Assembly (NCBI GenBank): GCA_036387335.1
Contig: DASVTZ010000041.1
Coordinates: forward strand, 1-64,000
DNA: 64,000 nucleotides
Reading direction: 5' to 3'
Source: Longimicrobium sp.
GTDB taxonomy: Bacteria; Gemmatimonadota; Gemmatimonadetes; Longimicrobiales; Longimicrobiaceae
Positions 9,347 to 21,106 of this stretch are shown piece after piece. A program made the translations under genes and the position numbers. Under the pieces are notes generated by a model that was not told the DNA's origin, searched no databases, and worked only from the letters and a program-made list of their open reading frames with translations. Each line of letters begins with the position of its first letter. The first letter of the stretch is position 1.

Positions 9347-10501
9347 TCACACCCGGTTCGCGCGCAGCTCGTCCAGCGGATAGTGCGTGCCGCGCCACTC
9401 GATGCCGCGGTGGATGAGGGCGTAGAGGGTGGCGTTCCAGACGATGACGATGAAGAGGAGGCTGGCGAAGGGGACCGCGATGCCGCCCCAGACCGGCGCA
9501 CGCTGCTCCCGCGCGGCGCCGCCGAACAGGCCCAGGATCATCGCGACCGAGAAGGCGTAGATCCAGCGTGTGGGGCCCACAGTCAGGAAGATGGCGATGA
9601 AGGGGAAGATCATGAATGCGAGCTGCGTCAGCGTGGCGAAGACCACCATCGAGACGCGGTAGTCGAGGCCCGCGAAACCGTTCTTCCGCAGCCCGCGCAC
9701 CGCCTCGGGGATGCTGCGGTACCATTCGACGGAGACGTGGGTCACCGCCACGAGGAAGTCCTGCCGCTGGCCGTTCTTCTTCATCAGCTTCCCCAGCTTC
9801 ATGTCGTCGTCCGGCCGCATGGCGATGGCCCGGTGGGTGCCGATGCTGCGGTACGACGACGCGCGCACCAGGTTGAACGCGCCGATGCCGATGTGGCTGG
9901 CCGATCGGGGGTCGCGCGCCTTCCACGGGCGCGAGAAGAGGAGGAAGCAGATCCCAAAGAGCACGCCGAACGCCTGCAGCAGGAAGCCGGGCATGTCGAT
10001 GCGCGGCGCCATCGTCAGGTGGTCCAGCCGCTCGCGCTCCATGTAGCTCGCGGCCAGGCGCACGGTATCCGGCGCCATCACGATGTCCGCGTCGGTGAAG
10101 AGAATCAGCTCGCCCCGCGCATCCGCGGCGCCGAGGTCGAGGGCGTGGTTCTTCCCCAGCCACCCGGCCGGGAGCTCGCGCACGTGGACCACGCGCAGCC
10201 GCGGATCGGCGACGGCCATGCGGTCCAGGATCTCGCCCGTGCGGTCGGCGGAGCGGTCGTCCACCACCACCAGCTCGATATTGGCGAGGTCCTGCGCCAG
10301 GATGGAGCCCATCGCCTCCTCCACGTTGCGCTCCTCGTCGCGCGCGGCCACCACCACCGAGACCAGCGGCAGCTCGGATTGGGGGAGGGGCTCCACCGCG
10401 GCCAGGTAGCGCAGCTTCCCGCGCCCGCGCAGCAGCTCCACGGCGACCAGGAGAAACGACGCGACCGTGACGACCGCGAGCCAGAAGAGAAAGGTGTTCA
10501 T
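9347..10501 (-). CDS. Membrane glycosyltransferase, GT2 family
   Basis: 384 residues. One N-terminal membrane segment (FWLAVVTVASFLLVAVELL) precedes a GT-A fold. PLVSVVVAARDEERNVEEAM starts the nucleotide-sugar domain, ELVVVDDRSADRT carries the first acidic pair, and FTDADIVMAPDTV is the DxD-like metal site. Further on, RPDDDMKLGKLMKKNG resembles the acceptor/ED-type motif. Several membrane segments close the C-terminus. The layout is that of polyprenyl- or lipid-linked GT2 enzymes, including hopanoid- and carotenoid-associated ones (HpnB/CrtQ-like). Substrate unknown. It lies downstream of no operon partner and ends at a family-B repeat. Confidence 0.85.
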   Translation of the reverse strand: MNTFLFWLAVVTVASFLLVAVELLRGRGKLRYLAAVEPLPQSELPLVSVVVAARDEERNVEEAMGSILAQDLANIELVVVDDRSADRTGEILDRMAVADPRLRVVHVRELPAGWLGKNHALDLGAADARGELILFTDADIVMAPDTVRLAASYMERERLDHLTMAPRIDMPGFLLQAFGVLFGICFLLFSRPWKARDPRSASHIGIGAFNLVRASSYRSIGTHRAIAMRPDDDMKLGKLMKKNGQRQDFLVAVTHVSVEWYRSIPEAVRGLRKNGFAGLDYRVSMVVFATLTQLAFMIFPFIAIFLTVGPTRWIYAFSVAMILGLFGGAAREQRAPVWGGIAVPFASLLFIVIVWNATLYALIHRGIEWRGTHYPLDELRANRV

Positions 10502-11841
10502 CGCGCTCCAAGAGGGTTCACACGCCCGGCGGCGGTGAGTCTAGCGGGAGCGCGGCGGGGCGGCCAGCCGTGGCGGGCGCGGAGCTTGCTACCCGACGGA
10601 CCTACGGAAAGGCGCAAACCAGGGAGGCAGCGTGGCCGATATCGACGTGGAGCGGAACAGGGGGAGCGTGTGGCCGTGGGTGATCGGCGGGCTTGCGGTG
10701 CTGCTGCTCGGGGTCGCGATCTGGAGCCTGCTGAACGGGGGCGGCGGAGAGGTGCGCGTCCGCCAGGCCACGCCGGAGACGGTGCCCGCGGCGGGAAGCT
10801 GATCGGGCCGCTTGTCTGGCGCCCGAGAGACGCTATATTCCCACGAAAACGCGTGCGGGCCCGCCGGGGCCCGGCACGGCCACTGCGTCGGCGCGCGGGG
10901 GGTGCCTCCGCGCGCCGACGCTCGTATCGGGCCCGGCGAACGCATCCACTGGAGGCTGAATGGCGAAGCAGGAAGGGTTCGAGGTCGAAGGCGTGGTGAC
11001 GGAGGTGCTCCCCGACCGCAACTACCGCGTGAAGCTGGAGAACGGGCACCAGGTTCTGGCCTACGCGGCCGGCCGCATGTCCAAGAACAAGATCCGCGTG
11101 CTGGAGGGCGACCGCGTAACGCTCGCCATGTCGCCGTACGACCTCACCCGCGGGCGGATCACGTACCGCCACAAGTAGCCGAGGCTGGCGCCCGCGGGGC
11201 CCTCTCCCCCAGCGTCGCTCCGCGACGCATCCCCCTCCCCCAAAACTGCCTGGGGGAGGGGGTTTATTGCATGTATCCGCGCGGGGCGCGTGCCCGCCCC
11301 GCCACCGCCGCCCACCTCGCCGCACGATATCCGTAGGGGCAGACCTGCGTGTCTGCCCTCCCTCTCCCCCGCGCAGCTTTCGGACCGGTTGTTTGAGGGC
11401 CGGGCGCAATCGGCGAATCTCGTCCGCAAGGCCATTCAGGAGCGCACATACGCTGTCCCGCATCTCGCCTACCTTCGCCTCGGTGACAGTGCGATTCGCG
11501 CCGTACTCCAGATCGCGGCGAACGCCCTGCTCCGTCTGCATTGCCGCTATCGATCCGGTGAGCGCTTCAGGAGCCAGGACGGTGCCCGCGGCAAAGGTGT
11601 GCTCGTGGTGATTCGCCGCCCCCTTTGCGCGGTATCCATGCGCGGCGTTTAGGGCGACAACCCCCTGGCGCGCCGCATCGTAGAGAAGTTTGAACTGTCC
11701 CGTGCGGCTCAGCCGTGGGGTGGCGGCGTCGTCGTACGATTCGATGGCGCGCTGCCAGAACCCCAGAACCTCCGCGTCGTCGGCGTCGAGGCGCTCGACC
11801 CACTGGTTGGCGACCAGTTGCTCGATCGTCTGCCCGGTCAT
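10498..11841 (-). CDS. HEPN toxin-like protein with run-on 3' end
   Basis: The recognisable protein covers 11841 down to about 11380 (155 residues). It is an all-helical HEPN-type nuclease/toxin partner with [16 protein letters not shown], then [20 protein letters not shown] and a C-terminal helix [19 protein letters not shown]. The ATG overlaps the stop of the upstream MNT gene (TGATG). The frame then enters a family-C repeat (peptide [15 protein letters not shown]) and meets no stop until 10498. It would therefore read about 880 nt antisense to infA and the small gene before it. The formal CDS is 447 codons, but the last two thirds looks like non-native sequence acquired when a repeat destroyed the original stop. 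Confidence 0.6.
10632..10802 (+). CDS. Small single-pass membrane protein (56 residues)
   Basis: A short gene starting with GTG 10632 behind GGGAGG (10622-10627). It has a charged N-terminus ([16 protein letters not shown]), one clear membrane helix ([18 protein letters not shown], about residues 17-34) and a short outer tail ([20 protein letters not shown]). The frame is closed by TGA at 10800-10802. The ribosome-binding site, the clean TM profile and the position just before the infA promoter make it a likely real gene. Function unknown. Confidence 0.7.
   Translation: MADIDVERNRGSVWPWVIGGLAVLLLGVAIWSLLNGGGGEVRVRQATPETVPAAGS
10812..10839 (+). promoter_or_regulatory. Sigma-70-like promoter of infA
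   Basis: TTGTCT (10812-10817), 16 nt spacer, TATATT (10834-10839). It lies about 120 bp before the infA start and gives the mRNA a leader that contains a strong hairpin. Confidence 0.6.
10885..10921 (+). promoter_or_regulatory. 14-bp perfect hairpin in the infA leader
   Basis: GCGTCGGCGCGCGG (10885-10898) pairs exactly with CCGCGCGCCGACGC (10908-10921), loop of 9 nt. There is no T-run after it, so it is not a normal terminator; it sits in the 5' leader 39 nt before the infA start codon. Confidence 0.6.
10960..11178 (+). CDS. infA: Translation initiation factor IF-1
   Basis: 72 residues, the usual IF-1 length. It is a single S1/OB-fold domain ([20 protein letters not shown], then [20 protein letters not shown], then [20 protein letters not shown] and the terminal [11 protein letters not shown]), and it differs from the usual 'IEVEGTV' opening only in detail. 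IF-1 occupies the A-site region of the 30S subunit during initiation. A good GGAGG site precedes the ATG. It is not in a ribosomal-protein cluster here: it has its own promoter, a hairpin leader and its own terminator. Confidence 0.97.
11229..11266 (+). terminator. Rho-independent terminator after infA
   Basis: CCCCCTCCCCCA (11229-11240) and TGGGGGAGGGGG (11249-11260) form a perfect 12-bp stem with an 8-nt loop, followed by TTTATT. Confidence 0.85.
11329..11362. repeat. Family-C hairpin repeat
   Basis: GGGCAGACCTGCGTGTCTGCCC forms an 8-bp stem with a 6-nt loop, preceded by CCGTAGG. It lies at the 3' boundary of the HEPN gene and supplies the odd C-terminal peptide of that frame. Confidence 0.75.
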
Positions 11842-12431
11842 CAGGCGAATGCCTCCTCAGGAGTCCCCAGCGCCCACTGAGTCGCGCCGCCGATTGCACG
11901 CTTCAGATAGCTCGTTCCAGGCCGCGCGCGCTCTGCCTGCAACTCCGCGGGGGAATAGCGTTTGAGGTCGATCTCCCGGCCGAGGAGGAGACCGGCTTCG
12001 AGCGCAGCCATCCCAAGCGCACCCGGATCTGTTTCGTCGGCGATCACGAGCAGGTCGACGTCGCTGTCAGCGCGCATCCGCCCGCTTGCGGCCGAGCCGA
12101 AGACGAGGGCGCCCCGCACGCCGGGGAGATCCTGGAACAGGTCGCCGATCACCTCCACGGGCGTCGCAAAGGTACGGATCATCTCGCGGAGGGTGACCCA
12201 CGCTTCCGGATTGGCCGCTTCGTACACGACGCGCCGCCGCTCGGCCGTTCGTGTTACCAACCCGAGCGCTTCCAACGTGTCGAGCGTATTTTTGAGTGAC
12301 TGCCGCGCGAGTCCGAGACGACGCTCCAGTGCGCGGAAGTGGAGCCGCGACGCTGGGCGTGCCGCGAAGTGCACGAGCGCTCGACGCATGGCTGCGGAGC
12401 CGAGCAGTGACTGCAGTGCCATAGTCTGCAC
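11841..12431 (-). CDS. MNT nucleotidyltransferase antitoxin with N-terminal winged helix
   Basis: 196 residues from GTG 12431 (ATG 12422 is a possible later start; neither has a good ribosome site). An N-terminal winged helix-turn-helix spans about residues 15-75 (LHFRALERRLGLARQSLKNT, then LEALGLVTRT). It is followed by a minimal nucleotidyltransferase with the GS-x9-DxD signature in ALVFGSAASGRMRADSDVDL. The stop overlaps the HEPN start, giving the typical MNT/HEPN toxin-antitoxin order. MNT proteins of this class modify (AMPylate) or neutralise their HEPN partner; the added HTH suggests autoregulation at the palindrome just upstream. A lone paralogue is at 42058-42642. Confidence 0.85.
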   Translation of the reverse strand: MQTMALQSLLGSAAMRRALVHFAARPASRLHFRALERRLGLARQSLKNTLDTLEALGLVTRTAERRRVVYEAANPEAWVTLREMIRTFATPVEVIGDLFQDLPGVRGALVFGSAASGRMRADSDVDLLVIADETDPGALGMAALEAGLLLGREIDLKRYSPAELQAERARPGTSYLKRAIGGATQWALGTPEEAFA

Positions 12432-12509: not shown

Positions 12510-13202
12510 TCACCGGGCTGGCAGCGTGGCGGACACGGTGGAGGGGATGCCGCGCTCGGCGGCGGCGTCGGTGAGCGCGGCGAAGACCTCGTCGCGGTTG
12601 CGGATGGTGCGCAGGCGGAGGGTGTGCGTGCGGCCGTCGCTGAGGTGGATGTGGAGGGCGGTGCCGTCGCGGCGGATGGCGGCGATCTCGGTCCAGGCGG
12701 CGGCGAAGCGGCGGAACTTGCCCGGGCGGATGAACATGCCCTCGGAGTCCAGGCGGAGCACCTGCCGCTCGGCGCGCCGCCGCTTGAGGCGCGGGGTGAA
12801 GAAGGCGAGCACCAGGGTCGCGACGGCGCTCACCGCCGCGGGCCGGGGGACGCGGCCCCTGTCGTGGTAGCTCTGCACGCACTCGGCGATCAGCACCACG
12901 GCGGCGAAGAGGGTGACCCACGAGATTTTTCCCGCATCGTCGTCCACGCCGGCGCGCATCTCACGCAGCTCGCCCACGATGGCCAACAGCAGCGCGATGC
13001 CGGCCACCGCTTCGGCCGCCGCGATGATGGCGCCGGACGCGGTGGTCACCGGGAGTGCGCCCGAAGCCGCGGACAGCACCCCGAAGGCGGCGATCGCGTT
13101 GGTGCCGAGGTCCGACACGTTGGCGGCCATCGCGCGCCGGTCGTCCAGGCGGATGATGCGCGTTCCGGCGGTGGAGGCGGAGCTCGTGGAAGGGAGGTGC
13201 AT
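12510..13202 (-). CDS. Membrane protein with PH-like cytoplasmic tail, unknown
   Basis: About 230 residues from ATG 13202; an upstream in-frame ATG at 13238 exists but lies in a hairpin region. Roughly four membrane helices are visible (NAIAAFGVLSAASGALPV, IIAAAEAVAGIALLLAIV, ISWVTLFAAVVLIAECV, AAVSAVATLVLAFFTP). A C-terminal basic and beta-rich domain follows (RQVLRLDSEGMFIRPG, then WTEIAAIRRDGTALHIHLSD) that reads like a bacterial PH-type domain. No enzyme motif. It follows the B12 operon on the same strand but is separated by a stem-loop, so it is probably independent. Confidence 0.7.
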   Translation of the reverse strand: MHLPSTSSASTAGTRIIRLDDRRAMAANVSDLGTNAIAAFGVLSAASGALPVTTASGAIIAAAEAVAGIALLLAIVGELREMRAGVDDDAGKISWVTLFAAVVLIAECVQSYHDRGRVPRPAAVSAVATLVLAFFTPRLKRRRAERQVLRLDSEGMFIRPGKFRRFAAAWTEIAAIRRDGTALHIHLSDGRTHTLRLRTIRNRDEVFAALTDAAAERGIPSTVSATLPAR

Positions 13203-13212
13203 CCCGAAAGAA

Positions 13213-13243
13213 TGGGGTGGACGCACGCGGGCGTCCACCCCTG
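13213..13243 (-). terminator. Stem-loop at the end of the B12 uptake transcript
   Basis: GGGGTGGACGC (13214-13224) pairs with GCGTCCACCCC (13231-13241), a perfect 11-bp stem with a 6-nt loop; on the minus strand it is followed by ATTCTTT. It sits 10 bp past the stop of the second propeller gene. A weak T-tract makes this a probable, not certain, terminator. Confidence 0.55.
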
Positions 13244-13251
13244 TCGGGCTG

Positions 13252-14307
13252 TCAGCGGGGCAGAAGAGAGGTGAACTCGACGTCGGCGGGGCAGATGCCG
13301 GTGAGGGCGCTGGCGGCGGGGGTGCCGTCCGGGTCGAGCCTCACCAGCGTGCCGGCCCGCTCGCACGCTCCCGGAAGGAGCGCGTAGACGAAGCCGGCCG
13401 GGTCCGACGCCACGCGCACGGCGTCGTCCATCCCCCCCAGCGGCAGCGGCGATCCGGCGCCGCGCAGGAAGATGCCCGTCACCGGGTTGAAGATCACCAG
13501 CCCCTGCTGCCGGACGGGGACGTAGAGGCCTCCGCGCGCATCGAAGGCCATGCTCTCGGGCGACTCGCCGAAGCCCGCGACGGACGACCTCTCGCGCATC
13601 GTCGCGACGTCGACCGCCGAGACCGAGCTGTTGGCCAGCGCCGGCTGGCCCGCCAGGAGCACGTACAGCAGATCGCCCCGCACGACCGCCGCGACCGGGT
13701 TCGTGCCGGAGAGCGGCGCGGAGCCCAGCGGGCGCAGCAGCGTGTCCAGCACGGTGACCATCCCGTTGGTCCGCGCCCCGGCCGCGCCGTTCAGCACGTA
13801 GACGCGGGGGCCGAAGCGCAGGACGTCCGACGGTGCCTCGCCGCCCGCGTTGGTCGGCGCGCCCACCCGCCCGGTCAGCGGGTTGAGCAGGGTGAGGGTG
13901 CCGCGCGCGGGGTTGGTCACCAACACCAGGGTGTCGCTGATGAAGGCGGCGCGGCGCGCATCCAGGCCGGGCGCCATCGCCACCATCCGCTCCACCGTGC
14001 CGGTGCGGAGGTTGACGATGGCCACGCCGCCCGCGCCGCCCATGGGGACCACGGCCAGCTCGCCGCGGACGGCCAGGTCCACGGGAGCCCCCGCGGCGCC
14101 CAGCGGGATCGTTCGAGACGTTTCGCGCGCGGCGAAAGGGATGACGGTGAGCGTCCGGTCGACGCGGTTCACCACCACCGCCACGCGGTCGACGGTGGGA
14201 TTGCGGACGCCGTCGGGCGAGGTCAGGTCACCGGCGCACGCGGCGGCGGCGGTGGCCGCGAAGAGGACGGCGAGGGTGCGGCGCCAGCTGGATCGAAGCA
14301 ATTGCAT
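13252..14307 (-). CDS. Beta-propeller lipoprotein 2, BtuG-like candidate
   Basis: 351 residues. Lipoprotein signal (MQLLRSSWRRTLAVLFAATA, lipobox AAACAG with Cys24), then a repeated beta-propeller. About 40-50-residue blades carry phrases such as DRVAVVVNRVDRTLTVIPF, GGVAIVNLRTGTVERMVAMA, TLVLVTNPARGTLTLLNPLT and NSSVSAVDVATMRERSSVAG. This is the YncE/surface-layer type of propeller. It is a paralogue of the next upstream gene and lies in the cobalamin riboswitch region after a BtuB-like receptor. In Bacteroides, surface propeller lipoproteins (BtuG) bind B12 and sit on BtuB; that role is inferred here from architecture and context. Confidence 0.78.
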   Translation of the reverse strand: MQLLRSSWRRTLAVLFAATAAAACAGDLTSPDGVRNPTVDRVAVVVNRVDRTLTVIPFAARETSRTIPLGAAGAPVDLAVRGELAVVPMGGAGGVAIVNLRTGTVERMVAMAPGLDARRAAFISDTLVLVTNPARGTLTLLNPLTGRVGAPTNAGGEAPSDVLRFGPRVYVLNGAAGARTNGMVTVLDTLLRPLGSAPLSGTNPVAAVVRGDLLYVLLAGQPALANSSVSAVDVATMRERSSVAGFGESPESMAFDARGGLYVPVRQQGLVIFNPVTGIFLRGAGSPLPLGGMDDAVRVASDPAGFVYALLPGACERAGTLVRLDPDGTPAASALTGICPADVEFTSLLPR

Positions 14308-14423
14308 TCCCGGAAGGGTTGGTCACGTCCTCTGCGCGGGGGGACGCACGAGCGCATCCACCCCGCGGGGCACGATCGATGGTCACGTTCCTTCGTGCAT
14401 CCACCCCCTACGGGCCGGCTCCG

Positions 14424-15509
14424 TCAGAAGCTGCGGACCTCGACGGCGCTGGGGCCGTTCACCGACGAGATGCTGTCGGCCAGGGCGAAGTCGCCGGGGC
14501 GGTACACGAATACCCGAGGCGCAAGGTTCTCCGCCGGGCTCCCGAAGAACGCCTGGTAGAGATTTCCTTGCACATCGGTGGTCGCATCGAACGCTCCGCG
14601 GCAGGCGCCGCTCGCCAGCTTCGCGCACACCGGGTTGTTCAGGCCGCGCACGAACGTACGGTTGCGCGTGTTCCAGACCAGCGTCCCGAAGCCGTAGCCG
14701 GAGACGTACGCCAGCCCCGCGGGATCGATGTGGATGCTCTGCGCGCCGGCGCCGAAGCCGCTGACGGTGGCCTCCGCCCGCATCGTCTGGGGGTTGACGA
14801 TGGTGACGCTCGCGTCGGAGACGTAGTTCCCCGTGTTCAGCACGTAGAGGAGCCCGTCGGAGCCCAGCGCGGCGTCGGTGGAATTGGTGCCGCCCATCTG
14901 CACCACGCCCTGGACCTGGAGGGTACGCGGGTCGAGGAAGGTGACCACGCCGTTCCCCGCCGGGACGTAGTTCGCATCCAGGTTGCTGGAGATGATCGCC
15001 GCCCGTCCCGCGGCGATCACGATGGCGGTGGGCGCGGGGGCCACGTTCACCGTCTGGCGGATGCTGTCGCTCGCCTGCCCCAGGGTGGCACGGCCCACGT
15101 AGTCGTCGATGAAGTTGGCGGCCAGCAGCGTGGTGTCGTCCGCGAAGGCGGAGCCGGTGGCGTTGCCCTTGGGGAAGAGGAAGAAGCGCGTGACGCGCAG
15201 CGCCTCCAGGTCCACGAGCGCCACGCTGGCCGCATTCCCCAGCGGCACGGCGGCGCGGCGCCCCTGCACCGAGAGCCCCGTCGGCGTCACCGCCGCGGAC
15301 GCGCCGAACGGGATCTGGCGCACCTGGGCCGCGTCACCGGCGCGGGCGAGGGTCAGCGAGCTGCCGAGCGAGTTGACCACGATAGCCACCGGCTCGTCGC
15401 CGTCCAGGATGAAGGGCTGCTCGTTGCCCGTGGAGTCGCCATCGCACGCGGCGAGGAGTGCGGCGGCGGCGGCGACGCCGAGGCGGCGCAGGATGATGCT
15501 GTGGTTCAT
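14424..15509 (-). CDS. Beta-propeller lipoprotein 1, BtuG-like candidate
   Basis: 361 residues. Lipoprotein signal ending in LLAACDGD (Cys22), then a YncE-type beta-propeller. Blade phrases include EPVAIVVNSLGSSLTLARAG, AASVALVDLEALRVTRFFLF, NGVVTFLDPRTLQVQGVVQM, ASVTIVNPQTMRAEATVSGF and the closing FVYRPGDFALADSISSVNG. The start codon overlaps the stop of the BtuB-like receptor gene (ATGA), so receptor and lipoprotein are translated together. That coupling strongly suggests a physical receptor/lipoprotein pair at the cell surface, as with BtuB-BtuG. The gap to propeller 2 (117 bp) contains a partial copy of the GGACGCACG-type stem. Confidence 0.8.
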   Translation of the reverse strand: MNHSIILRRLGVAAAAALLAACDGDSTGNEQPFILDGDEPVAIVVNSLGSSLTLARAGDAAQVRQIPFGASAAVTPTGLSVQGRRAAVPLGNAASVALVDLEALRVTRFFLFPKGNATGSAFADDTTLLAANFIDDYVGRATLGQASDSIRQTVNVAPAPTAIVIAAGRAAIISSNLDANYVPAGNGVVTFLDPRTLQVQGVVQMGGTNSTDAALGSDGLLYVLNTGNYVSDASVTIVNPQTMRAEATVSGFGAGAQSIHIDPAGLAYVSGYGFGTLVWNTRNRTFVRGLNNPVCAKLASGACRGAFDATTDVQGNLYQAFFGSPAENLAPRVFVYRPGDFALADSISSVNGPSAVEVRSF

Positions 15510-17698
15510 CGGTCTGTCGATCCTGAGGATGATGATGTGTGGGGCGCGCCCCTGCGCAGGCGCACGCCCAGCGTCCAGGCACGGCCCGGATACGGATAGT
15601 CCACCAGCATGGCCGCATGCGTATCGGCCAGGTTCTCGATGGCGAAGGTGCCCTCGCCCGCCCACGCGCCCAGCGCGAAGGGGCGGGCGAGGCGCAGGTC
15701 GGCCATCGCGTAAGGCTCCAGCAGGTTGAGCGTGTCGCCCGCCACGGAGCGGCGCTCGCCCACCCATCGTCCCTGCAGCTCGGCCCGGATGCGGCCGGGG
15801 AGACGCGCCGCGGCCGCCGCGCTCGCCGTGTGGCGCGGGCGGAATGCCACCTGGCCGCTCAGCACCGGCCCCGTGTACTCCACCGCCGCGCGCGACGCGG
15901 TGCCGCGCAGCTCGGCATCCGCCCAGGGGAAGCGCACGCGGGCCTGCACGTCCGCGCCGGCGCGGCGCACGTCGAAGTTGCGCGGGCTCCACTGGAAGCG
16001 GTGGTCGGGGAACCAGAGGACCATGCCGTCCACGTCCGCGCGGTAGGCGGCGAGCTCGGCATCGATACGGAGCGCGCCGACGGCGGCGTCGCGAAGCTCC
16101 AGCGCACCCTCCACTTCGCCGCGCACGCGCTCGGGGCGGAGGTCGGGGTTGGGCTTGACGAGGACGCCCTCGTGGAAGAACTGGTCGGCGAGCGTGGGCG
16201 GCGAGAAGGCGTTGCCGATGGAGAGTCGCGCCGCCAGGGGTCCACGCGTGGCCGACGCGCCCATGCGCGGCGAGAGGGTGGTGCCGCGCACCCGCGTGCT
16301 CCAGTCCGCGCGCGCGGCGGGAAGGAGGTCGAGCGTCCACCCCGCGCCCACCGCGCGTCCCCACCGCCCCTGCAGCCAGACGGCGCCTAGCGACTGTCCG
16401 TCAGGCGCGTCTTCGAGGAGGGAGGTGGTGACGCCCAGCGTGCGCGCCTCCGCCCCGCCGACCACGTCCAGCGATCCCCGCCCCGCGCGCGCGGAGACGG
16501 CGGCGCCTGCGGCCCGGGCGCGAACCTCGTCGTCGTACGCGCCGCCGACGTTGGGCTCCGGATCACGGAAGCGGGCGTGCTGAAGCTGCGCGTCGAGCTC
16601 CATCCGCCACTCCACGCCAGCGGCCGGAAGGCGGGCGGAGAGCGCGGCGCCCGCGCGGTCCTGCTCCTGCCGCGCGCCGAGATCCGGCTGCGCTGTCCCG
16701 CCCGGCATCCCGCGCCGCGTGGCGAAGCCGTCCACCCGCACCCCCACCTCGCCGCCCCCGCGCTCCGCACGACCGCTGGCGAGGATGGAGAGCGATCCGG
16801 CATCCGCGTTGCGCCGCACGGCCGTCCCCCCGCCGCGGAACTCGGGCACGAGGTAGCGGAAGTCGCCCTCCGAGCGCTGCCCCTCCACCGATGCGAAGCC
16901 GGAGAGCGCCGTCGCCCCCGCGCCGCGCCGCCCGCCTGCCGAGACGGCGCCGCGCCGCTCGCCCCAGCTCCCCACCGCCGCGCGCGCGGATAGCTCGGTG
17001 CCGCGCGGGCGCTTCGTCTCCACCGCCACCACGCCGGCGAGCGCCCGCGCCCCGTAGCGCGCCGACTGCGCCCCGCGCAGCACCGTCACGCGCTCCACCG
17101 ACTCCAGAGGGACGGTGGAGAGATCCGCATCGCCAGTCAGGGCGGAGTTGAGCGGGACGCCGTCGAGGAGCACGAGCACCTCGTTCGCGCTGCTCCCGCG
17201 GATGGAGACACGCGTGGGCGACCCCGGTCCGCCCTGCCGCGTGACGACCACCCCCGCCTGGTCGCGCAGGACCTCCCCCAACTCGCGCGCGCCGGACGCG
17301 TCGATGGCCGCGCGGTCCAGCACCGTGGTCCCCGCGGCGTCGCGCGCTGCCCGCACGCGGATCGCCTCCAGCGCGATGGCGGATGGATCGAGGACCACGA
17401 GGAGCGTGACCGTGCGCCCGTTGGCCGCTTCCACGCTGAAGCGCCCCTCCCTGAACCCGAGCGCCGTCACCCTCACCTCGCGCGTCCCCGGCGACACCCC
17501 GCGCAGCAGGAACGCGCCGTCCGGCCCCGCGACGGCTGCGGCGCCCTCGGCCTCCACGCGCGCGCCGGGGACGGCGGTGCCGGTGCCGCGCTCGGTCACG
17601 CGCCCGCGCACCTCCGCCGGGTACTGCGCGGCGGCGGGGGAGGGGGAGGCGAGGAGGATGAGGAGGAGGAGGAGGAGCCAGGCACCCCCGGCGGTTGA
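15506..17698 (-). CDS. TonB-dependent receptor, BtuB-like; 5' end unresolved
   Basis: About 730 residues. A signal peptide (AWLLLLLLILLASPSPAAAQ) is followed by a carboxypeptidase-regulatory-like domain (VRGRVTERGTGTAVPGARVE). Then come the TonB plug (ELGEVLRDQAGVVVTRQGGP, VSIRGSSANEVLVLLDGVPL, RVTVLRGAQSARYGARALAG) and a barrel. The protein lacks the usual terminal Phe and ends in GSTDR. No in-frame ATG, GTG or TTG exists between the hydrophobic core at 17680 and about 17973; that stretch is a family-D repeat cluster. The 5' end given here is therefore approximate. Downstream of btuFCD and a cobalamin riboswitch, cobalamin or cobinamide is the likely ligand. Confidence 0.82.
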   Translation of the reverse strand, partial: STAGGAWLLLLLLILLASPSPAAAQYPAEVRGRVTERGTGTAVPGARVEAEGAAAVAGPDGAFLLRGVSPGTREVRVTALGFREGRFSVEAANGRTVTLLVVLDPSAIALEAIRVRAARDAAGTTVLDRAAIDASGARELGEVLRDQAGVVVTRQGGPGSPTRVSIRGSSANEVLVLLDGVPLNSALTGDADLSTVPLESVERVTVLRGAQSARYGARALAGVVAVETKRPRGTELSARAAVGSWGERRGAVSAGGRRGAGATALSGFASVEGQRSEGDFRYLVPEFRGGGTAVRRNADAGSLSILASGRAERGGGEVGVRVDGFATRRGMPGGTAQPDLGARQEQDRAGAALSARLPAAGVEWRMELDAQLQHARFRDPEPNVGGAYDDEVRARAAGAAVSARAGRGSLDVVGGAEARTLGVTTSLLEDAPDGQSLGAVWLQGRWGRAVGAGWTLDLLPAARADWSTRVRGTTLSPRMGASATRGPLAARLSIGNAFSPPTLADQFFHEGVLVKPNPDLRPERVRGEVEGALELRDAAVGALRIDAELAAYRADVDGMVLWFPDHRFQWSPRNFDVRRAGADVQARVRFPWADAELRGTASRAAVEYTGPVLSGQVAFRPRHTASAAAAARLPGRIRAELQGRWVGERRSVAGDTLNLLEPYAMADLRLARPFALGAWAGEGTFAIENLADTHAAMLVDYPYPGRAWTLGVRLRRGAPHTSSSSGSTDR

Positions 17699-17955
17699 AA
17701 CCGCTGCAACAACCGCGGGAAACCTGCCTTCGCAGGTTGGGCGCGTGGATTGGCGCGCGGTGGCGGGCGTGGCGCGGGGGCGCGCATCATCGCGGGAGCC
17801 CCCGGGGGATGAATCCCCCGGCTGGAACCACGGGAAGACGGCTGAAGCCGTCTCGCGCGCCGCACCGGCATCACGCCGCGCGCGCGGACCTCGCCCGCGA
17901 GTCCGCGAAGGCGGACTTTGTGCTGTTGTTGCCGCGATTTCAATCGCCCGGACCC
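17689..17955. repeat. Family-D hairpin cluster
   Basis: Between btuD and the BtuB-like gene. It contains GTTGAAACCGCTGCAACAAC, AACCTGCCTTCGCAGGTT, CCGGGGGATGAATCCCCCGG, GACGGCTGAAGCCGTC and AGTCCGCGAAGGCGGACT: perfect stems of 6-9 bp with 4-nt loops. It abuts the signal-peptide codons of the receptor. Confidence 0.8.
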
Positions 17956-17978
17956 GGAACCGGGCACCCACCCCCGTT

Positions 17979-18821
17979 CTACGCCGCATGTCCGTCCTCC
18001 GCGCGCACCTGCATGGTGCCGCACGTCTCGCCGGCGAGAGGGACGACCTGGGGGGCACCGGCGTCCGGGCCGGGGCCGGGGTGCGGGACGACGCGCACCG
18101 GCCAGCCGTACACCCGCTCCACCGTATCGCGCGTCAGCACCTGCGCGGGAGTGCCTGCGGCGGCCACGCGTCCGCGGTGGAGGAGGACGAGGTGGTCGGC
18201 GTAGCGGGCGGCGAGGTTCAGGTTGTGGGTCACGACGAGGACCGTCGTCCCCGCGCGCGCCAGGTCGCGGAGAAGCTCCCAGATCGCCATCTCGTGGCTG
18301 ACGTCGAGCGCGGCGGTGGGCTCGTCCAGGGCGAGGGCGCGCGGCTCCTGGGCCAGCGCGCGCGCCACTCGCGTGCGCTGACGTTCGCCGCCGGAGAGGT
18401 TCGCGACCGGGCGCGCGGCGAGGTCGCGCACGTCGCAGCGGCGCATCGCCTCCTCCACGGCGCGGCGGTCGGCGGCGCCCTCGCGGCGCCAGGGGCCCAG
18501 GTGCGGATAGCGGCCCATCGCCACCAGGTCGCGCACCGATATCGGGAAGGCGGCCTCCTCGCCCTGCGGCACCACGCCCACCGCGCGCGCCAGCTCGGGA
18601 CGGCTCCACGCGGCCAGTGGACGGTCGTCGAACCCGGCCGTTCCCGCGCTGGGTGTCAGGGTGCCGAGCAGAACGCGCAGGAGAGTGCTCTTCCCCGATC
18701 CGTTGGGGCCGAGCACGGCGGTGCATCCGCCGGCGGCTGCCTCCATCGACACGCCCTCCAGCGCATTCACATCCGCCTCGGGGTAGCGGAAGGTGACCCC
18801 GTCGCAGCGCCACCCGCTCAC
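17979..18821 (-). CDS. btuD: Cobalamin-type ABC transporter ATPase BtuD
   Basis: 280 residues. FecE/BtuD-type ATPase: Walker A LGPNGSGKST, Q-loop in VVPQGEEAAFP, PISVRDLVAMGRYPHLGPW typical of the iron-siderophore/B12 subgroup, signature LSGGERQR, Walker B LALDEPTAALD and switch His in VVTHNLNLAARY. The start overlaps the btuC stop (ATGA). A 25-30 residue tail after the core (GAPQVVPLAGETCGTMQVRA) has no known role. It powers uptake through BtuC of ligand delivered by BtuF. The riboswitch upstream indicates B12 rather than a siderophore. Confidence 0.9.
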   Translation of the reverse strand: MSGWRCDGVTFRYPEADVNALEGVSMEAAAGGCTAVLGPNGSGKSTLLRVLLGTLTPSAGTAGFDDRPLAAWSRPELARAVGVVPQGEEAAFPISVRDLVAMGRYPHLGPWRREGAADRRAVEEAMRRCDVRDLAARPVANLSGGERQRTRVARALAQEPRALALDEPTAALDVSHEMAIWELLRDLARAGTTVLVVTHNLNLAARYADHLVLLHRGRVAAAGTPAQVLTRDTVERVYGWPVRVVPHPGPGPDAGAPQVVPLAGETCGTMQVRAEDGHAA

Positions 18822-19804
18822 GCCATCCTCCGCCGCAGCAGGTAGACGAAGAAGGGGACGCCCACGAACGCCGTCACCACGCCGATGGGGAGCTCGGTGG
18901 GAGCGGCGGCGGTGCGCGCGAGCGTGTCGGCGAGGACCGCGAAGGTGGCGCCCAGCAGCACGGAGGCGGGAAGGAGGAAGCGGTGGTCGCCGCCCCAGAG
19001 CATGCGCACGACGTGCGGGACCACGAGGCCGACGAAGCCGATCACCCCGCTGACCGCGACCGCCGCCGCCGTCAGCAGCGAGGCCGTGCCGTACGCCAGC
19101 AGCTTCGTGCGCTCCGTACGCACACCGAGGAACGCCGCCGTCTCCTCCCCGACCGCGAAGAGGTTCAGCGGGCGCGCCAGGGCGAAGAGGAGCAGAAGGG
19201 CCGGTACCATCGCGCCAGCCATCGTCCCGATGCCGCGCCAGGTGGCGCCGCTGAAGCTCCCCATCATCCAGAACATGGCGGAGCGGAAGCTCTCCGTGTC
19301 CGCGAAGGTGAGCGCCAGGAGGATGCAGGCGTTGAAGAAGGCGCCCACCACCACGCCCGCCAGCAGCAGGACGCGGGTGTCGAGCGCCTTCCCCACCGAC
19401 GCGGCCACGCGAAAGACGAGGAGGATCGCCAGGATTGCCCCCGCGAACGCGGAGAGCGCCACCATCGCGCCGGACGCCGGGGCGCCGGTGAGGACGATGG
19501 CCCCTACCGCGCCCACGGCGGCCCCGCCCGAGACGCCCAGGATGTACGGCTCCGCCAGCGGGTTGCGGAGGAGCGCCTGGAAGGTGGCCCCGCTCGCCGC
19601 CAGCGAGCCGCCCACCAGCGCGGCCAGCAGCGCGCGCGGCAGCCGCAGCCGCCGCACGATGGCGATCGTCGTGGGGTCGCCATCTCCCCGTATCCCGGCG
19701 ACGACCTCGCGCACGCTCAGCGGCACGGCGCCCATGCGCACGCCCAGCAGGAGCGCGCCGGCGAGGGCCGCCACTAGCAACGCGAGGCGAAGCACGGGCC
19801 TCAC
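18818..19804 (-). CDS. btuC: Cobalamin-type ABC transporter permease BtuC
   Basis: 328 residues from GTG 19804, which overlaps the btuF stop (GTGA). FecCD-family permease with about ten membrane helices. Family phrases include RLPRALLAALVGGSLAASGA, FQALLRNPLAEPYILGVSGG, FWMMGSFSGATW, AVSGVIGFVGLVVPHVVRML and the terminal TELPIGVVTAFVGVPFFVYL. It forms the channel for periplasmic B12. The length is normal. Translation is coupled to both btuF upstream and btuD downstream. Confidence 0.92.
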   Translation of the reverse strand: MRPVLRLALLVAALAGALLLGVRMGAVPLSVREVVAGIRGDGDPTTIAIVRRLRLPRALLAALVGGSLAASGATFQALLRNPLAEPYILGVSGGAAVGAVGAIVLTGAPASGAMVALSAFAGAILAILLVFRVAASVGKALDTRVLLLAGVVVGAFFNACILLALTFADTESFRSAMFWMMGSFSGATWRGIGTMAGAMVPALLLLFALARPLNLFAVGEETAAFLGVRTERTKLLAYGTASLLTAAAVAVSGVIGFVGLVVPHVVRMLWGGDHRFLLPASVLLGATFAVLADTLARTAAAPTELPIGVVTAFVGVPFFVYLLRRRMA

Positions 19805-20712
19805 CGGCGGGCCCGCTCTGGGTGCAGCGCGTCTCGAAGCCGCCGCGCCGTCTCGCCCACGCCTGGCCCGGGAAGGTTCACCAGCTCCGCCGGGATCAGC
19901 ACGGGGCCGCGCATCGCCTTCAGCTCCCGCCAGCCGGGCGAGCGCGCGTCGAAGCGCGGCGTGCGGCTCTCGCCCACTGGGATGACGACGACGTCGGGCT
20001 GGCGGCGAACGATCTCCTCCATCGACACGGTGGGCCACAGCTCCGTCACCTCGGGAAAGACGGGCCTCCCGCCGGCCACGCCGATCAGCTGCATGACGAA
20101 CGTGCCGGGACCCGCCGTCATGGGGGGATCGTTCCACACCACGAAGAGGACGGACGGGCGCGGCAGCCCCTCGACGGAAGCGCGCACCGCATCGATCTCG
20201 CCGCGCAGGCGCGTGGCCAGCGAGTCGGCGGTGGGGGCGCGGCCGGTGAGCCGCCCCAGGTTGCGAATGGTGCGGAAGACGTCGGTGGTGTCCTCCGTCT
20301 TCACGGCGAACACGGGGATGCCCAGCTCGGCCAATCGCTCGCGAAGCTGCGGCTTGTGCGTCTCCCAGCCGATCACGAGGTCCGGGCGGAGGGCGGCGAG
20401 CTTCTCCAGGTTCGGGTCCAGCCCGCCGCCGACGGAGGGGAGCGAGTCCAGCGCCGGGCCCTTGTCGAAGTCGGTGCGCCCCACGAGCTGCCCGGCCGCG
20501 CCGAGCCCCACCAGCGTCGCGTTCGCGCTGGGGACGAGCGACACCACGCGGCGGGCGGGGCGCGGCAGCGTCACCGTGCGCCCCGCGTCGTCGGTCAGGG
20601 TGATGGCGCCCTCGGCCGCGGCGTCCGCGCGCACGTCTGCCCGCCCGCACCCGCCGGCGAGGGCGAGCACGGCCGCGAGGGCGGCGATGCGGAGGCGTGG
20701 CGCGATGGACAA
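19801..20712 (-). CDS. btuF: Cobalamin-binding periplasmic protein BtuF
   Basis: About 303 residues. The start is not an ATG: TTG 20712 (or TTG 20715) directly behind the leader terminator fits, with GAGGAAAGGA some 13 nt upstream. A hydrophobic signal ends in ALAGGCG (lipoprotein). The class III binding fold is clear: RTVTLPRPARRVVSLVPSAN, GAAGQLVGRTDF, then LEKLAALRPDLVIGWETHKP, a long backbone helix, and PDVVVIPVGESRTP. BtuF captures B12 for BtuCD. A longer in-frame start at 20793 would lie inside the riboswitch leader and is less likely. Confidence 0.85.
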   Translation of the reverse strand: MSIAPRLRIAALAAVLALAGGCGRADVRADAAAEGAITLTDDAGRTVTLPRPARRVVSLVPSANATLVGLGAAGQLVGRTDFDKGPALDSLPSVGGGLDPNLEKLAALRPDLVIGWETHKPQLRERLAELGIPVFAVKTEDTTDVFRTIRNLGRLTGRAPTADSLATRLRGEIDAVRASVEGLPRPSVLFVVWNDPPMTAGPGTFVMQLIGVAGGRPVFPEVTELWPTVSMEEIVRRQPDVVVIPVGESRTPRFDARSPGWRELKAMRGPVLIPAELVNLPGPGVGETARRLRDALHPERARR

Positions 20713-20752
20713 CAAAAAAACCCGTCCTTTCCTCGGGCGGAAAGAGACGGGG
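20713..20752 (-). terminator. Intrinsic terminator controlled by the cobalamin riboswitch
   Basis: On the minus strand, CCCCGTCTCTTTCC pairs with GGAAAGGACGGG (one bulge), followed by seven Ts just before the btuF start. It stands between the aptamer and the first codon, so B12 binding can stop transcription of the uptake operon. Confidence 0.85.
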
Positions 20753-20844
20753 TTGCGAGGGGCTGCCTGCATCGCGCGCTCGGGGGAGCGCACCGGCCCG
20801 GTGCGAACCCCGCCCCCCTCCCGCGAGGGGGTGTGCGTGCGGGA

Positions 20845-20985
20845 GCGAAGGGGGCCGGGGTCTGACTCGAGGCAGCCGCGCTCGCCGTTCCGTGGGAACG
20901 GTTGAGCGGGCCGGGCCTCTCACAGTGGCGGGGCCGCGCCGGATTCACACCGGCTTCCGAAAGGCCCCCTCGCGATTTATGTGGG
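20845..20985 (-). promoter_or_regulatory. Cobalamin (AdoCbl-type) riboswitch aptamer
   Basis: Read on the minus strand, the block GGAAGCCGGTGTGAATCCGG is followed by CGCGGCCCCGCCACTGTGAG, the diagnostic core of cobalamin riboswitches (CCGGTGTGAA..CCGG..GCGG.CCCGCCACTG). A B12-box-like AGTCAGACCC segment follows about 70 nt later near 20860. It controls btuF-C-D and probably the receptor and propeller genes. The exact aptamer edges are estimated. Confidence 0.92.
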
Positions 20986-21106
20986 CGCAAAGGTAGCCGC
21001 GGCTCCGGCGCGGGACAAGGGCACCACCACACGATCCCCCGCCGACCTCCCTGCCCCGGGATTTCGGCGCACTATTATCAGCCAGGGTACCGACCCATAC
21101 CAATGA

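Follow-up and report, generated by a model that had tools for sequence, protein, structure and literature searches.

BtuG1, BtuG2 and BtuG3 of Bacteroides thetaiotaomicron (PF16819/DUF5074; PDB 8PTD, 8BMX, 8OKV and 3DSM) are the closest known counterparts of the two beta-propeller lipoproteins, P1 and P2, that are analysed here. The pocket residues of BtuG2 are Trp194, Trp272 and Tyr316. By a negatively charged face this protein draws B12, whose lower ligand it leaves uncovered, and it accepts a broad range of corrinoids (PMC10404256). A 2018 paper called BtuG exclusive to Bacteroidetes (PMC6143338), and none of the papers searched names both BtuG and Gemmatimonadota. Relatives of BtuG were observed in the non-Bacteroides Bacteroidota Chitinophaga, Chryseobacterium and Empedobacter (L093-L118), which shows that BtuG also occurs outside gut Bacteroides. 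E. coli YncE is also a beta-propeller encoded beside a TonB receptor, as P1 and P2 are, but it is far less similar to them than BtuG in fold and profile; its gene adjoins the PQQ receptor gene pqqU (L119, 464-3869), a possible parallel of propeller and TonB receptor for another cofactor.

Cultures of Gemmatimonadota need B12, and no genes for its de novo synthesis were detected in the genomes analysed (PMC10581226). The phylum is widespread; B12 receptors with a lid would account for the way in which its members compete for B12, and would suggest that such lids are no adaptation to the gut. In this study, a window of 64,000 nucleotides from Longimicrobium sp. (contig DASVTZ010000041.1) was analysed. 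Like BtuG, P1 and P2 have a predicted propeller of BtuG shape, a lipobox, a gene near a BtuB-type receptor and a type of locus that in relatives is clearly preceded by a cobalamin riboswitch. Unlike BtuG, they have neither a DUF5074 match nor the Bacteroidota export signal in its usual form, are only distantly similar in structural alignment (11-17% identity), come from another phylum and, in this genus, form a pair downstream of a single receptor.

Organization of the locus

All operon genes, and the other features placed between 12510 and 20958 of the window, lie on the minus strand, in the order aptamer, terminator, btuF, btuC, btuD, TonB receptor, P1, P2 and terminator. Gene content, order and coordinates agreed with a sequence-only reading of the same DNA, and since this arrangement is found repeatedly in the phylum, it is not due to chance. 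The intrinsic terminator before btuF, the expression platform, is a strong hairpin with a stem and a U-run (20726..20745). The btuF-like gene for a periplasmic binding lipoprotein (19801..20793; Peripla_BP_2) has its listed ORF start upstream of this terminator, and the true start is probably near 20715 (TTG). It is followed by genes for a btuC-like FecCD permease (18818..19870; PF01032, 1.6e-91; top NCBIfam match BtuC) and a btuD-like ATPase (17979..18821; ABC_tran). The btuD/receptor junction contains a dispersed repeat (17815..17975) with at least 65 matches in the window genome; in G285, too, copies of this intergenic repeat lie beyond the 3' end of the propeller gene (L059, 3566-4195).

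The next gene encodes a BtuB-like TonB receptor (15506..17806; PF07715, PF00593 and PF13620), BtuB-like by its PDB matches and of class A by the tree. P1, the receptor-paired propeller (14424..15509), has 361 aa with lipobox LLAAC and Cys22, and its start codon shares 4 nt (ATGA) with the end of the receptor gene, confirming the overlap noticed before. P2, the second and divergent propeller (13252..14307), has 351 aa with lipobox AAAC and Cys24. Both were classified as BtuG-like by AF2 and Foldseek; they are 34% identical and are the sole two family members found in the window genome. In the 116-nt spacer between them (14308..14423) no promoter and no terminator was called and folding was no better than in shuffles, so a promoter or terminator of its own between P1 and P2 was rejected. 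The operon ends at a terminator with an 11-bp stem (13214..13241). The gene behind it (12510..13238), encoding a 242 aa membrane protein with no family, lies behind the propeller also in same-family relatives and served to mark vertically inherited gene order. Further downstream (window 10498-12431), a nucleotidyltransferase with an N-terminal helix-turn-helix adjoins a HEPN-like ORF, which by eye resembles an MNT/HEPN-type toxin-antitoxin pair.

Relation of P1 and P2 to BtuG

The AF2 models of P1 and P2, obtained with an alignment of relatives as input, were beta-propellers with mean pLDDT of 92.1 and 89.7, respectively. When the models were compared by Foldseek with the whole PDB (350,542 chains), ranks 1-11 for P1 and 1-16 for P2 were all Bacteroides BtuG, and the first non-BtuG match was an archaeal S-layer propeller. 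Cytochrome cd1 reached rank 23 at best; E. coli YncE ranked 40th for P2 and did not enter the top 50 for P1. The propellers are thus closer in fold to BtuG than to YncE, cytochrome or S-layer propellers, as had been proposed, with a moderate structural similarity (TM about 0.7).

Profile-profile comparison using 25 Bacteroidota BtuG sequences gave a 98.7% probability between the P2-family and BtuG profiles, collinear over 292 columns. Rotation of the P2-family profile around the ring lowered the BtuG score and the native blade register scored highest, which argues that the blades of the P2 family and BtuG correspond one to one; circular permutation relative to BtuG was therefore rejected for P2. 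The P1-family profile was weaker (94.4%), had no register preference and was uninformative on permutation. In a single-sequence control against the P2-family profile, BtuG reached 79-97% and E. coli YncE 7.6%. Neither P1 nor P2 matched DUF5074 (the BtuG Pfam family), the YNCE model PF21783 or any other Pfam family; DUF5074 was matched weakly by 7 of the 57 relatives in alignment A1 (best 1.4e-5), against 5e-10 to 9e-16 for Bacteroidota BtuG sequences. Many relatives gave weak matches to the NCBIfam PQQ-associated propeller and YVTN repeats, and a PQQ-binding or generic identity for P1 and P2 was rejected because these weak matches stood alone. From sequence profiles and models, P1 and P2 probably share ancestry with BtuG and are predicted to work in a BtuG-like manner, though they are outside DUF5074 by the Pfam threshold.

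A lipoprotein signal with a conserved Cys was present in P1, P2 and nearly all relatives. From the Cys on, the residues are CDGDS in P1 and CAGDL in P2, with no K-D/E Bacteroidota export motif. An acid at +3 after the Cys was found in 65% of the family versus 26% in a small, rough background of lipoproteins from the loci examined, an enrichment that does not decide the matter. Because the known form of the signal for surface export in Bacteroidota was not seen here, surface exposure in Gemmatimonadota is an assumption. The P1-type propellers of L041-L051 (f3 and f7) carry an extra Ig/PKD-like domain of ~100 residues between lipid anchor and propeller, perhaps a spacer.

The receptor and its coupling to the propeller in Gemmatimonadota

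The receptor has a signal peptide, plug, barrel and N-terminal CarboxypepD_reg extension (Pfam, NCBIfam). Its closest known counterparts are BtuB1-3 of Bacteroides and BtuB of E. coli; the top PDB matches (E. coli BtuB, 6e-23) cover both plug and barrel, and the first other receptor followed at 7e-13, in line with the BtuB-like nature first suggested. The receptor differs from BtuB in the CarboxypepD_reg domain and in its score with TIGR01779 (BtuB), which is its best NCBIfam match but reaches 120.6 bits against the equivalog cut-off of 599.7.

Among 298 sampled Gemmatimonadota genomes, relatives were found in 78 by P1 and in 92 by P2 (about 30%), and cobalamin riboswitches in 271. A scan of named genomes with P1 gave no match, the pattern peptides being probably too divergent. 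In the 60 relative loci examined with their surroundings, the propeller follows the receptor or btuD. It stands almost always after the receptor in f1-f3, f5 and f7-f9, the exceptions being G197 (a fragment) and G158 (a partly masked record), while in f4 genomes it stands after the receptor in some and directly after btuD in others. Three f4 loci with the latter order (L073, L084 and L092) have an operon without a receptor, and the large gene that comes next in them is selB (selenocysteine elongation factor). The spacing between receptor and propeller, taken from the 43 loci with a recognised receptor, ranged from -4 to +132 nt. In nearly all loci whose contig reached far enough, a cobalamin riboswitch (mostly 54-85 bits) was located upstream of the receptor-propeller pair or of a btuFCD-receptor-propeller operon; L037 (G019) has the full series of riboswitch, btuFCD, receptor and propeller. 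In f3 and f7 the receptor-P1 pair has its own riboswitch, in many cases divergent from a second riboswitch before btuFCD, which makes this pair a self-contained unit.

The distances between the parts were compared in the 25 loci that had all of them. Propeller distance correlated with receptor distance when BtuCD was controlled (partial r 0.80, permutation p 0.0005), and the correlation with BtuCD distance was negative when the receptor was controlled. Co-divergence of the propeller with the receptor, and not with the ABC transporter, is the prediction of a physical receptor-lid pair. These data indicate that a BtuB-BtuG-like pair, as predicted from sequences and models, exists in Gemmatimonadota. 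The proposed extension of this pair to another phylum was thus supported, since the propeller-receptor pair is widespread there and linked to cobalamin riboswitches.

Two receptor classes and a probable receptor swap

The trees of receptor and propeller contained matching clades, receptor A with P1-type and receptor B with P2-type propellers. Among the 298 genomes, both propellers behind one receptor were found only in the window genome and its close relative G251, and two propellers as a common design was rejected on this ground. The btuC-btuD of these two genomes group with their own family (SH-aLRT 97), and their receptor and P1 fall in the A clade, unlike the receptor of the nearest relatives. 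A constraint placing the family's receptors in one clade was rejected (p-AU 1e-43), and one placing P2 with the family's propellers was not (p 0.34); the placement of P2 is unsure because its stem branch is long. DNA identity to G285 (75%) spans 17979-21002 and breaks off at the stop codon of btuD. In G285 and G243, a homologue of the gene that follows P2 likewise follows the propeller. The btuFCD genes, P2 and the next gene retain the family gene order.

Since trees, gene order and conservation all point to a receptor swap, the likeliest reading is that a cassette of receptor A and P1 replaced receptor B and left P2, its old lid, behind. The pattern could also be the result of an ancestral duplication with differential loss. 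The nearest receptors to that of the window are only about 46% identical, too distant to point to a donor of the swap. Such a swap would serve as a natural experiment on how far a lid depends on its own receptor.

State of P2 and proposed working of the pair

It is probable, in our judgement, that P1 is the lid of the class A receptor and P2 the former lid of a replaced class B receptor. For P1 this is suggested by homology, gene coupling and co-evolution with the receptor. P1 would be lipid-anchored beside the barrel, would cover as a lid at the cell surface the BtuB-like receptor whose gene precedes its own, would catch the corrinoid on the face closing over the receptor, and would hand it down for TonB-driven import and then to BtuF and BtuCD. 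This scheme is the BtuB-BtuG arrangement of Bacteroides; we infer that P1 lies at the surface, binds B12, docks and moves as a lid. P2 would originally have served receptor B until the receptor-A and P1 cassette took the place of that receptor in this genus. P2 is presumably expressed from the same operon and is still selected; it would now most likely either bind corrinoids while undocked or only weakly docked, or be heading for loss.

Between the window genome and G251, P1 and P2 had similar dS and dN/dS values of 0.17 and 0.33, respectively, which indicates that P2 is fast-evolving yet under purifying selection. The idea of P2 as a pseudogene was not supported, given this dN/dS and an intact gene in both genomes. 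P2 keeps 45 of the 57 pan-family conserved sites, compared with 51-57 of 57-60 in receptor-paired relatives, and 7 of the 17 sites specific to its clade, compared with 13-17 of 17-20. Its pI is 6.6, while its clade ranges over 4.05-5.1 (median near 4.2), P1 has 4.7 and the G251 copy of P2 has 5.2. As BtuG2 draws B12 with a negative face, the loss of acidity, which was judged from whole-protein charge rather than a mapped surface, may point to weaker capture or to a new ligand.

That P2 is a receptor-free accessory corrinoid catcher is a possible reading, though a minority one in our estimate. It is favoured by the selection on a propeller without a receptor partner and by the retention of pan-family rather than clade-specific sites, and it has a possible functional parallel in BtuH (DUF4465), a second lipoprotein of B12 loci that is not tied to the receptor and binds without a stable BtuB complex (PMC8941943); BtuH is not a propeller, however, and P2 is one. 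The loss of acidity could equally reflect lost corrinoid attraction, and the G251 copy is less extreme. The more general proposal that lid receptors cross phyla, with receptor and lid moving as a cassette, and that an old lid turned into a free surface corrinoid binder, the propeller counterpart of BtuH, is speculative and in our view rather doubtful.

The sequence-only reading had suggested that there may be one propeller per corrinoid class; in the model that follows from it, both are working lids that alternate on one receptor. P1 and P2 are indeed both full-length, BtuG-resembling lipoproteins of one operon under purifying selection, and both genes are kept in both genomes that carry the pair. 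But a pair confined to 2 of the 298 genomes, P1-type and P2-type propellers that elsewhere each pair with their own receptor class, and a P2 that has lost many sites of receptor-B partners together with its acidic character make alternation quite unlikely; moreover, the exposed lower ligand and broad binding of BtuG2 mean that class specificity is not required of a lid. The trees, the gene order and the pattern of conservation point instead to the swap, and the claim was not supported. We consider it very unlikely that P1 and P2 are generic YncE/S-layer-type propellers, or propellers for another cofactor (PQQ, haem or a metal complex), that are in a B12 operon incidentally. The missing match to a curated family, the weak PQQ-associated and YVTN matches of many relatives and the position of E. 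coli yncE beside pqqU would fit this, but the link to cobalamin riboswitches and btuFCD that recurs throughout the phylum, the BtuB-like neighbouring receptor and the ranking of BtuG above YncE and S-layer folds argue against it.

Regulation and B12 need

The window operon is headed by a cobalamin aptamer remnant (20858..20958, minus strand; RF00174, 34.7 bits), the sole hit in the genome, whereas the G251 aptamer scored 67.9 bits. The remnant is short: the CCACUGG...GGGAAGG segment is missing and the AGCCAGGAGACC box is shortened, both of which are largely kept in G251, G285 and G032. We take these two to be core elements of the cobalamin aptamer class. The terminator downstream of the degraded aptamer is intact. 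The operon is accordingly riboswitch-headed by position, as had been claimed, but its B12 response is doubtful because the conserved core segments are absent, and loss or change of B12 regulation is possible from the aptamer sequence. Besides MetH, several B12-binding domains were found in the window genome, and no CbiC, which is consistent with a B12 salvager.
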